Virus record (IMG/VR): IMGVR_UViG_3300002514_000053
Coordinates: 1-44,010 of that record
Source: a virus
Direction: 5' to 3' (one strand)
Length of the DNA stretch: 44,010 nt
This document shows positions 4 through 3,012 of the stretch, one piece after another. Positions within the stretch are counted from its first letter, which is position 1. The number at the start of each line of letters is the position of its first letter. A program made the position numbers and the translations under genes. Below the pieces are notes generated by a model. That model saw only the letters and a list, made by a program, of their open reading frames with translations. It made no database searches and was not told the origin of the DNA.

Positions 4-350
4 TGGTGGAGGTGTCGGGAGTCGAACCCGAGTCCTAAATATTTCCAATATAACGTCATTCACAAGGTTAGTCAGTTTGCGAACTCTGACAAACTCACAC
101 CGCGCACTATCAAGTTTGTCCTATGGGTCCTACTTGAAAAAACCACTTGACCGTCTACCCTCCGAAGAGGACCATCAACGGAACAGTCTTTGGATAACAA
201 GGCTCTCATTATTCCCCGTGATTATGCCGCTAGGGCGTAATCAAAAGTAACGTTATCGTTAGCAATTAAAGTTTTGAATGTTTTTACTGTGCCACTCACA
301 CACCCTTGCACGTTATATTTTTAATACTCAGTCGATACCAGTTCACCCCC
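4..350 (-). ncRNA. ssrA: tmRNA (ssrA), one-piece, tag ANDNVTFDYALAA
   Basis: Transfer-messenger RNA that rescues stalled ribosomes and adds a degradation tag. Read on the minus strand it begins GGGGGTGAACTGG and ends CTCCCGACACCTCCACCA. The 5' GGGGGTG pairs with CACCTCC over 7 bp and includes a G-U at the third pair, the alanine identity element. The T arm is TCGGG-TTCGACT-CCCGA and CCA is encoded (4-6). A 10-bp P2 helix joins 310-319 with 47-56 and extends by a further AT-rich helix. A UUCG-capped hairpin lies at 159-170 and a pseudoknot is readable at 71-94. The resume codon GCT is at 261-263 and the tag stop TAA at 222-224. The 5' and 3' halves are in normal order, so this is not the two-piece form known from alphaproteobacteria and some cyanobacteria. 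The 5' end overlaps the primase stop codon, and a shared transcript with primase is likely. Recognition is firm; activity is inferred. Confidence 0.95.
222..263 (-). other. tmRNA tag reading frame
   Basis: Fourteen codons from GCT to TAA encode A-N-D-N-V-T-F-D-Y-A-L-A-A. The AND start and the YALAA end match the general bacterial tag pattern; the C-terminal ALAA is the type recognised by ClpXP in well-studied bacteria. The middle NVTFD makes the tag 13 residues, longer than the 10-11 of many bacteria. An A-rich stretch precedes the resume codon, as is usual. Confidence 0.93.
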
Positions 351-1287
351 GTAAGTTAATTATTTCATCTATTAAATAGTCATAAGATTTTATAAATTTT
401 GCTTCTTTCTTGCGCTTTAGAAAGGCTGCATTAGACATGCCTCCTACATCTTCATAAGGAGAAATATCAATCTGATGTATTTCTATATCATATTCTAATA
501 GAGACTTAATTATTTTTAAAGCTTTTGTCTGCGCATCTAAATCCAAAGCAATATAAATTGGTGTGTCATTTTTAGCAATCTCTTGAAATAATTTTGAATC
601 TTCCCTCAAAGTAGATCCCAATAATGGAACGGCGTTTTCTCCTGCCTTAATGGCATCGAACACACCCTCGACCAAAATCATATCCTCATCAAAATCTAGA
701 TATAACTCATTGAAAATAATGTCTTTTGATACTTTCGGATTTTGATATTTCTTCCAATCTCCTGAATAACTTCTTGCTATGAAATAATTTGCTTTTCCCG
801 TCATTCCGAATGAGGGAATAATGATACGTCCTTCATATTCTCCATCCAAACAATAACCCATTTTCCATTTAATAATGTCTCGCTTTGTATAGCCTCGACT
901 TTCCAAATAATTTAGAGGGTAGAGAGAGGTCTTAGGAAGCTTTCTGTTGGCAAGAGATATGAACTCTTTTGGTAACTCAAGTACTTGTTCTGGTTCTATT
1001 TCTTCTTTCCCAAACAAAGCTTCAGATAACGACTTTGTTTCAATCTCCTGTGTAAGTGACGCCCACTCTCTTCGTTGCTCAAATGTTCCATAACGACGAA
1101 TAAGTCGATAAATGGAACGACCAGCATATTCACAAACCCAACATTTAAATACATCTTTATCAATATTAATTGAAAGCTTGTTTTTATGATGTTGACACTT
1201 GGGGCATTCAAATAGAAGCTCATTACCAGAACGATGAGAATAACCTAAAGCACTACTTAAAATCTTTAGCTTTTTTCCACTTGACAT
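343..1287 (-). CDS. DNA primase, CHC2 zinc finger plus TOPRIM
   Basis: Primase that lays RNA primers at the replication fork. The N-terminus (about residues 25-55) has a zinc finger with cysteines C28, C31, C49 and C52 (CPKC and CWVC), as in DnaG/T7-type CHC2 domains. The TOPRIM domain follows (about 200-275), with E207 in ILVEGVFDA and the DxD pair D249/D251 in IALDLDA, the metal-binding residues of the family. At 314 residues it is shorter than bacterial DnaG and has no fused helicase; a separate helicase is presumably elsewhere in the genome. The start overlaps the end of the RuvC-like gene by 22 bases, so the two are probably translated together. The UGA stop (343-345) lies in the acceptor stem of the tmRNA. 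Confident of family. Confidence 0.93.
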   Translation of the reverse strand: MSSGKKLKILSSALGYSHRSGNELLFECPKCQHHKNKLSINIDKDVFKCWVCEYAGRSIYRLIRRYGTFEQRREWASLTQEIETKSLSEALFGKEEIEPEQVLELPKEFISLANRKLPKTSLYPLNYLESRGYTKRDIIKWKMGYCLDGEYEGRIIIPSFGMTGKANYFIARSYSGDWKKYQNPKVSKDIIFNELYLDFDEDMILVEGVFDAIKAGENAVPLLGSTLREDSKLFQEIAKNDTPIYIALDLDAQTKALKIIKSLLEYDIEIHQIDISPYEDVGGMSNAAFLKRKKEAKFIKSYDYLIDEIINLRG

Positions 1288-1787
1288 AAATACCCTGCAT
1301 TTGCGATAACCCAGCTATCTGCTTTGTCGAAGCATTCAGGGCGCGGATTACCGTGCTTGGTATATACTATATCAACATCTGGCACATTGTCAAGCACAAA
1401 TTTTATAACTTCTTGCTTTGCTTTGGTACCTTTCGGAATTTTAATCCCACATTTCTTGCGAGCAGATGTTGCAGCAATATATTCAGGCTCAATATTAAAA
1501 AAACTATAACACATCCAAGAAACAACGCCATTAAATTTAGAGAGTGTTGAAAGAGTCTTGGCAGAGGAAAAACCGGAGCGAAATGATTGGAGTGATTGTT
1601 CGATATAGATATGCGTTAACTTGTATTTATATACCATATCCTCAAGCTTTCCATGTATGACGCAGGCTTTTTTGAAAAAGTTCTTATATTTTCTAGTATC
1701 CCAAGCCTCATTATAAATTATATTACCATCATTATCAATAATGGTCGCACCTGTTATGCTGGTGCTTATATCTAAGCCTAGAATCAT
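1266..1787 (-). CDS. RuvC-like Holliday junction resolvase / RNase H-fold nuclease
   Basis: Likely structure-specific endonuclease that resolves branched DNA before packaging. The first strand carries ILGLDIST with the catalytic Asp, the middle carries IYIEQS with the catalytic Glu, and the end carries FDKADSWVIA with the last acidic residues, the order seen in RuvC. I chose the ATG at 1785-1787 (173 residues). The reading frame stays open to a TTG at 1811, but that would add eight residues before the first beta strand and overlap the upstream stop. No strong ribosome binding site is visible at either. The gene lies between virion genes and primase and overlaps primase by 22 bases. Phage RuvC-like resolvases of this length are known; exact substrate is inferred. 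Confidence 0.85.
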   Translation of the reverse strand: MILGLDISTSITGATIIDNDGNIIYNEAWDTRKYKNFFKKACVIHGKLEDMVYKYKLTHIYIEQSLQSFRSGFSSAKTLSTLSKFNGVVSWMCYSFFNIEPEYIAATSARKKCGIKIPKGTKAKQEVIKFVLDNVPDVDIVYTKHGNPRPECFDKADSWVIANAGYLCQVEKS

Positions 1788-1800
1788 AACAAATATTCTA

Positions 1801-3012
1801 TCATATATCAAGCTTAAGTTTAAAAGTTAAATCTCGATTCTCTGTTTTCTTTACGGGACGTGCAAGATTAGCAATTCCAATTAAATTATCATTATCATCA
1901 TAGATGCCTATTTTTGTTATAAAAGTTTGTTTCTTAAAAGGTTCACCATAACACTGAAATGATGAAGAAACGGTATTTTTAACTTTATTATTTTCAACCT
2001 CATAAAATTGTGTGGAAGACGTTACATATTGGTGATGTTTGGCATCCACAACACCAGCGGACGAACTAGTATTGAACTCAATATAAGTAGGATTGTGACT
2101 ATAGTTAAGTTCACCAGCTGGAGCGTGGCACATCATTGTCATGACAGATGTATTTTGAGAACCACTAAAATTGATTGAATAAGAAGATGATGGTGTTGAA
2201 TCTGTTGAACGGCCAAAAGCATCCCATTGTGTCGGAATTGGAGAACCATCTTCAATATAATCTTCTTCGTGTGCTGAGAGGGGCCACGAGCCTGTCAACA
2301 ACATTATTCCTTCTGGATATAACACAACACCACCGACCTTACCGTCATTGGTAGAAAGAGCACCCGATACTTGGTATAGGGCACCATCTCTATCTTTATC
2401 AACTAACTGTCCTATCGATGAACCTGATACAAAAAATTCTAATTTAACAGTCCCCTTTTTAATTTTAGACCCATAAAATATCGAAGGAATATTCAGCAAC
2501 GTCATGCTTTGGTTGTTTTTGTCCCAATGAAAATCACCATAAGATGCAGAATAAGCATAATGAGGTGTCAAATATACTTTATCATTAAGTATATTTTTAA
2601 GTGCTTGGAGCTGTAAAGTGCCGGTAAGATTAGCTTGATCTGTCAACCCCCATCCAGGAAAAGAGGTAGTAATGCTAGCTGTCATGGGATACGAACCATT
2701 AATTTCCGTACCATAATCGTCTTTCATATAATCCGTAAATTGCTGCTCTACGGGAGTATCACTAGTATAATCATATTTAAAAGAAGTCAACGTCGAATCT
2801 TTCAGCATAAAAGGATAAATTAAATTATCCGGTGCCCGATTGACATTCAATTCATATAGATTAGCATATCCCGTGGGATTATTGGAATTGACTAAGGTTT
2901 GATCTTGATTTTGATAATATACTTTGGTACCATATATATAAAAACTTACTTCCGGATAAGTGGTTATGGTGTTTCGAAATAAATCATTTTTACCAAATTT
3001 ATAATACGGCAT
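1801..3012 (-). CDS. Virion structural protein, paralogue of the next gene upstream (403 aa)
   Basis: Probably a tail or baseplate-associated structural protein. It is rich in Ser, Thr, Gly and Asn with many short beta-type stretches, typical of phage fibre and decoration proteins. From about residue 180 on it resembles the 356-residue product of the upstream gene: KKGTVKLEFFVSG against KKGSVNIELGVTG, VGGVVLYPEGIMLLTGS against KGGVVFYQAGIAAITAS, GELNYSHNPTY against NEFNYSSNPTY, and the ending KIGIYDDNDNLIGIANLARP against TVGLYSAKNELLAVAKVSEP. The N-terminal halves are different, which suggests a common C-terminal module with divergent N-terminal parts. No enzyme motif seen. The start is 10 bases from the upstream stop. 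Confidence 0.8.
   Translation of the reverse strand: MPYYKFGKNDLFRNTITTYPEVSFYIYGTKVYYQNQDQTLVNSNNPTGYANLYELNVNRAPDNLIYPFMLKDSTLTSFKYDYTSDTPVEQQFTDYMKDDYGTEINGSYPMTASITTSFPGWGLTDQANLTGTLQLQALKNILNDKVYLTPHYAYSASYGDFHWDKNNQSMTLLNIPSIFYGSKIKKGTVKLEFFVSGSSIGQLVDKDRDGALYQVSGALSTNDGKVGGVVLYPEGIMLLTGSWPLSAHEEDYIEDGSPIPTQWDAFGRSTDSTPSSSYSINFSGSQNTSVMTMMCHAPAGELNYSHNPTYIEFNTSSSAGVVDAKHHQYVTSSTQFYEVENNKVKNTVSSSFQCYGEPFKKQTFITKIGIYDDNDNLIGIANLARPVKKTENRDLTFKLKLDI

Follow-up and report, generated by a model that had tools for sequence, protein, structure and literature searches.

In one survey, coding sequences overlapped tRNA and tmRNA genes in about 1 in 15,000 mRNAs (PMC4131195). The precedent for a message made non-stop by tmRNA maturation comes from Carsonella ruddii, where smpB runs into ssrA and processing of the tmRNA would leave the smpB mRNA non-stop (Hudson et al., 2014, PMC4131195, citing Mao et al., 2009); Hudson et al. 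described this as an interesting feedback situation, of which they found no other example. In Escherichia coli, non-stop arfA mRNA arises by RNase III cleavage or by termination inside the open reading frame (ORF), and its expression is repressed by trans-translation (PMC10107115). Mitochondrial mRNAs that abut tRNAs are released by RNase P (tRNA punctuation), and their stop codons are completed by poly(A) (PMC9674279). Phage-borne tmRNAs are also known, from Melnitz and other marine phages (PMC9004378) and from mycobacteriophages (PMC4131195). Within the open-licence literature, the passages on marine phage tmRNA (PMC9004378), on mycobacteriophages (PMC4131195) and in the tmRNA database paper (PMC11915505) contained no mention of a coding overlap with tmRNA.

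Here we analysed a 44,010-base IMG/VR virus record (the window), which may be a fragment, and in which a tmRNA gene adjoins and overlaps the end of a primase gene. As in Carsonella, the upstream coding sequence enters the tmRNA gene and maturation should yield a non-stop mRNA; feedback was proposed there too, so the idea itself is not new (PMC4131195). The Carsonella case differs in the gene concerned (smpB), in its occurrence in half of the strains and in the much reduced genome of the endosymbiont (PMC4131195), whereas here the overlap is found in phages, involves a primase gene and an unrelated conserved gene of ~69 amino acids (aa), and recurs across many genomes. Like the arfA message, which trans-translation represses (PMC10107115), that of the primase is predicted to become non-stop through RNA processing; unlike arfA, which encodes a backup rescue factor and depends on RNase III or a terminator, the cut would be made here by RNase P and would release tmRNA itself. 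The predicted cut resembles mitochondrial tRNA punctuation in that RNase P would act at a tRNA-like 5' end abutting or truncating the upstream coding sequence, but polyadenylation cannot complete a stop codon on the primase end ...UUAC, where it would give CAA. The tmRNA of Melnitz is two-piece (PMC9004378), while that of the window is one-piece.

The tmRNA gene and its junction with the primase gene

The one-piece tmRNA (ssrA) gene occupies positions 4–350 on the minus strand, with its 5' end at 350 and an encoded CCA, as found by ARAGORN and by Rfam RF00023 (120.6 bits, gathering cut-off 47, E = 9.8e-47, model positions 1–374, that is, full length). ARAGORN placed the tag reading frame, ANDNVTFDYALAA followed by a stop, at 222–263 (minus strand); the tag has a protease-type tail. 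The acceptor stem consists of seven pairs (GGGGGUG/CACCUCC), its 3' strand CACCUCC lying at 8–14 (minus strand) and followed by ACCA, and it contains the G3-U70 pair of the alanine-accepting type. The mature 5' end is G350, from which RNase P cleavage is expected between 351 and 350 (minus strand). A search of bacterial genomes for the exact tag ANDNVTFDYALAA gave no match. SmpB was not found in the phage records checked, and the tmRNA of the window would therefore need host SmpB. One 484-kb uncultured phage record (LR756508.1, W03) gave two tmRNA matches that exceeded the Rfam cut-off, at 92434-92880 and 414804-414915, one of which is only 112 nt long.

The gene upstream of the tmRNA, at 343–1287 on the minus strand, encodes a DnaG-like DNA primase of 314 aa. 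Its product matched the profile phrog_47 (DNA primase) over residues 11–300 (E = 2.7e-38), including the N-terminal zinc-finger and TOPRIM-like regions, and contains the conserved stretches CPKC, KCWVC, EGVFDA and ALDxD. The primase start in turn shares 22 nt with the 3' end of an ORF for a RuvC-like Holliday junction resolvase (1266–1811, minus strand). At its 3' end the primase gene reads ...AAC UUA CGG GGG UGA, and the final 8 nt (343–350, minus strand) are nt 1–8 of the tmRNA: the conserved GGGGGUGA supplies the stop together with the two preceding codons (Arg in part, and Gly). The stop codon itself (343–345, minus strand) coincides with tmRNA nt 6–8, where U6 and G7 form acceptor pairs with A and C, respectively, and A8 is the first base of the junction. 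The expected RNase P cut point directly precedes the last two primase codons, as far as these lie in the tmRNA. ARAGORN, Rfam and our own reading of the ORF thus agree with the preliminary description, which had placed the UGA at the acceptor-stem junction and assigned 343–350 to both genes. Its geometric argument also holds on the sequence: if RNase P cut a transcript that spans the entire primase gene, the primase mRNA left behind would end ...AAC UUA C, without a stop codon, and such a message is a substrate of tmRNA. Between the two genes there is neither a terminator-like site nor room for a terminator or an intergenic promoter.

How much weight the shared stop can bear depends on how expected it is. 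The tmRNA consensus begins GGGGguGA, including UGA at nt 6–8 (Rfam), and because the UGA belongs to this consensus, an upstream frame entering the tmRNA meets it with a 1-in-3 chance. Since the tmRNA itself fixes this UGA, no regulatory purpose is required to account for a gene stopping on it. Even so, the arrangement is not random, for it recurs in two relatives of the window (L002 and L032) and in the 69-aa family; in both relatives and in most clusters of the family, as in the window, a same-strand coding sequence has its stop inside the mature tmRNA. Of the tmRNAs from phages, 98 of 99 started with GGGGNTGA, as did 61 of 61 from bacteria; these counts are circular, the loci having been fetched with that pattern, and the Rfam consensus was used instead. 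Sets fetched by the tmRNA 5' pattern are biased toward UGA, a bias from which the 69-aa and primase sets are free; the UGA was present in 7 of 9 tmRNAs fetched without the 5' pattern. No upstream gene clearly ended on the UGA in the 61 usable bacterial ssrA loci, a set fetched by tmRNA 5' sequence and so selected for UGA. Short ORFs (65–121 aa) that enter the bacterial tmRNA elsewhere, in L440, L464, L476, L486 and L504, were treated as chance ORFs. Some 5' ends of phage tmRNAs, for example GGGGAUGCC and GGGGGCGC, depart from the consensus UGA at nt 6–8 (L576, L585, L591, L621, L624, L629, L634 and L638; L420 and L423).

Relatives of the primase and a promoter-like element

Protein searches with the primase yielded 9 and then 80 loci, in records that are mostly fragments of uncultured phages. 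Two of these relatives carry the overlap, whose absence from all relatives the preliminary description had named as evidence against its proposal. In L002, an independent contig that extends beyond the tmRNA, the primase is 86% identical and the 8-nt overlap is the same; in L032, a contig of 157.7 kb with a primase 71% identical, the overlap is present and the junction lies one codon earlier. The primases of the window and L002 read ...INL and that of L032 ...ELLM before the terminal RG and stop, which the tmRNA supplies in all three. A search of GenBank phages with the nucleotide sequence of the tmRNA-primase junction gave no match.

The closest relatives of L032, namely L023 (L337) and L026 (L338), as well as L336, have a primase stop of their own after ...EIINL or ...EILNL, with the tmRNA farther downstream. 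On the maximum likelihood tree of the primases the overlap state changes twice, corresponding to two gains or to one gain and a later loss. Since close relatives keep a normal stop, coupling of the primase to the tmRNA is dispensable, and loss of the last two primase residues should not matter, because these relatives lack both. Most other relatives of the primase have no adjoining tmRNA, and several of them, where longer records exist, have one elsewhere in the genome. In this phage group tmRNAs follow differing genes, with gaps of 3–7 nt in L021, L028, L030, L031, L035 and L336/L424, which points to tight packing as a habit of the group. Small paralogues starting MKITK.QL.QII.EEL are repeated around the tmRNA in L021, L023, L030, L032 and L035, as if the region collected duplicated small genes, and very short cysteine-rich ORFs (of the type CCCCCGCCSCVNCSGKC) stop a few bases upstream of the tmRNA in L026/L338, L418, L422, L562 and L577.

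Comparing the window with L002, only 3 of 347 nt differ in the tmRNA (99% conserved), and two of these form a compensatory change from C-G to U-A in a hairpin. The primase gene differs at 183 of 937 nt, and most of these changes fall on the third base of a codon. Selection thus acts on both genes, and the pattern indicates that tmRNA function is conserved between the two phages.

The promoter-like element ACTATTTA (373–380, minus strand) is embedded in the terminal part of the primase coding sequence, 30 nt short of the first tmRNA nucleotide. It occurs in all three overlapping primases, at 30, 30 and 27 nt from tmRNA nt 1 in the window, L002 and L032, respectively. The element is strand-specific, enriched in intergenic DNA and situated mostly 11–60 nt before start codons; the genes that it precedes include those for the tail sheath, the baseplate wedge and the head-tail adaptor. 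From this position we infer that it drives transcription of structural (late-type) genes. Of 50 distinct relatives, 41 carry it where the primase gene ends, compared with 5 of 151 control sites elsewhere that have the same amino-acid motif; as the primases are related, the Fisher value for this comparison should not be taken as a genuine probability. It is probable that the tmRNA of the window also has a dedicated promoter, located within the primase coding sequence. A dedicated tmRNA promoter downstream of the primase coding region, which the preliminary description had held to be decisive against its view, was in effect half found: the element precedes the tmRNA closely, but it lies inside the coding region and not downstream of it.

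Most primases that bear ACTATTTA have no tmRNA behind them, so the element probably predates the arrival of the tmRNA; normally it would serve the gene after the primase. The simplest history has the tmRNA gene inserting immediately after a promoter that the primase 3' end already contained. A scan with the sigma-70 consensus gave eight weak sites, where 3.9 were expected, none of them positioned for the tmRNA, and the empirical motif was preferred. Written as ACTATTTAT, the motif (373–380 in the window; G036 and G021 records, L543–L560) is strand-specific and promoter-like in this phage group; it stands before structural genes and in some cases within the last part of the gene that comes before them.

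The ~69-aa gene upstream of phage tmRNAs

In a sample of phage tmRNAs, several were preceded by an ORF of 69 aa, unrelated to the primase, that ended on the tmRNA UGA. Searching with the 69-aa protein alone returned 80 loci (L561–L640, e.g., L630:2501-2707 and L564:2501-2707), and in 77 of the 79 that could be evaluated a tmRNA lay directly downstream, within 61 nt. Clustering at 90% identity gave 43 clusters: the stop falls on the UGA at nt 6–8 in 23 and deeper in the tmRNA (+10 to +41) in 10, while in the remaining clusters it lies at or before the tmRNA start (8) or no tmRNA was seen (2). Among the 41 clusters with a tmRNA, 33 therefore have their stop inside it, even though single changes could give an earlier one. 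The stop position varies, with offsets of +8, +10, +13, +27, +40, 0, -4, -10 and -60. Where a phage tmRNA lacks the consensus UGA at nt 6–8, the 69-aa frame upstream often extends deeper into the tmRNA.

Differences between the 69-aa genes are distributed over the three codon positions as 19/15/35 per 66 codons, mostly at the third, and the ORF is on that account a real protein gene. The protein follows the pattern MWKVYK..GDLISKHSSE..IWLD..P.GVI.KK.RG, and AlphaFold2 confidently predicted a b-b-a-b-b-b fold (pLDDT 92). Searches of Pfam, PHROGs, PDB sequences and PDB folds gave nothing convincing for it, and its one close fold match was an unnamed viral protein. Neither the 69-aa protein nor its junction with the tmRNA had a match in GenBank phages.

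Most of the 69-aa loci carry no ACTATTTA upstream, within up to 2.5 kb of flanking DNA. This makes a shared transcript a stronger scenario for the 69-aa family than for the primase: unless another type of promoter lies inside the gene, the tmRNA must derive from a transcript shared with it, and a harmless by-product may then not be the whole story in this family.

Readings of the overlap

Taken together, the locus is probably best read as genome compaction, in which the conserved UGA of the tmRNA is reused as the primase stop and a non-stop message is a tolerated by-product; we favour this over a circuit that was selected for. The tmRNA would be made mainly from the embedded ACTATTTA, with RNase P trimming a short leader. 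Longer transcripts that start upstream and carry the whole primase gene would also be tmRNA precursors, and only such read-through transcripts are expected to yield non-stop primase mRNA. Ribosomes that finish the primase before the tmRNA folds and is processed would terminate normally on the UGA. A ribosome at this stop would cover the acceptor region, so that termination and processing would compete on one molecule. Stranded ribosomes would be rescued by the tmRNA, which would tag the primase product as ...INL-ANDNVTFDYALAA. The overlap may be tolerated because the tmRNA clears its own by-product, any drop in primase output being a side effect.

A programmed circuit, in which tmRNA maturation deliberately destroys the primase mRNA and tags its product, so that tmRNA and primase output are inversely coupled, seems unlikely to us. 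It could draw on the geometry of the overlap, on its retention in L002 and recurrence in L032, and on the 69-aa family, where the stop stays in the tmRNA in most clusters with an earlier one a single change away and where most members have no promoter-like ACTATTTA upstream; the non-stop gene arfA, moreover, is known to be repressed by trans-translation (PMC10107115). Against this stand the promoter-like element embedded in the primase gene 30 nt from the tmRNA, the ordinary primase stops of sister phages, the UGA being forced by the tmRNA itself, and a stop position that wanders in the 69-aa family, unlike that of a tuned switch. Of the feedback put forward in the preliminary description, in which tmRNA maturation limits primase synthesis and rescues the ribosomes involved, the geometry stands; that a self-contained circuit limits the primase is disfavoured by the embedded ACTATTTA, the sisters with normal stops and the fixed UGA. 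We regard as similarly doubtful a broader view, according to which large tailed phages repeatedly built a cis-acting switch of the type 'RNA or protein, not both'. The tmRNA 5' end would there serve as the stop of the upstream gene (primase or ~69-aa), each tmRNA matured from the shared transcript would cut off that message, and the same tmRNA would clear its ribosomes, with the 69-aa protein as a dedicated tmRNA partner under such control.

It is more improbable still that the overlap is a pure accident, with full-length primase transcripts ending, being bound by ribosomes or being degraded before the tmRNA 3' end is reached, so that non-stop mRNA never accumulates. Completion of the acceptor stem needs about 340 more nt to be transcribed, which would give ribosomes time to finish, and the primase is probably required at an earlier stage than late-type transcripts. 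However, a terminator-like site and the space for one are both lacking between primase and tmRNA, and three phages share the overlap across two primase junctions, with a further gene family showing it as well. An artefact of annotation or assembly, with the primase ending elsewhere or the tmRNA a decayed remnant, might be suspected in a window that is a fragment beginning 3 nt beyond the tmRNA, but is already refuted by L002, an independent contig with the identical arrangement that continues past the tmRNA, and by L032; homology of the primase C-terminus reaches the junction, and the tmRNA is 99% conserved and shows a compensatory change in one pair.

As of 2014, overlap of smpB with ssrA was known only from some Carsonella strains, as far as that account goes, and genome reduction could explain it (PMC4131195). 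Here phages, too, show coding sequences that overlap tmRNA, namely the primase genes at two distinct junctions and a ~69-aa family beside the tmRNA in dozens of genomes, which raises the question of whether RNase P maturation of a tmRNA controls the gene in front of it. The conserved UGA of the tmRNA can double as an ordinary stop codon, and the survey of overlaps points to the ~69-aa protein as a candidate protein partner of phage tmRNAs.
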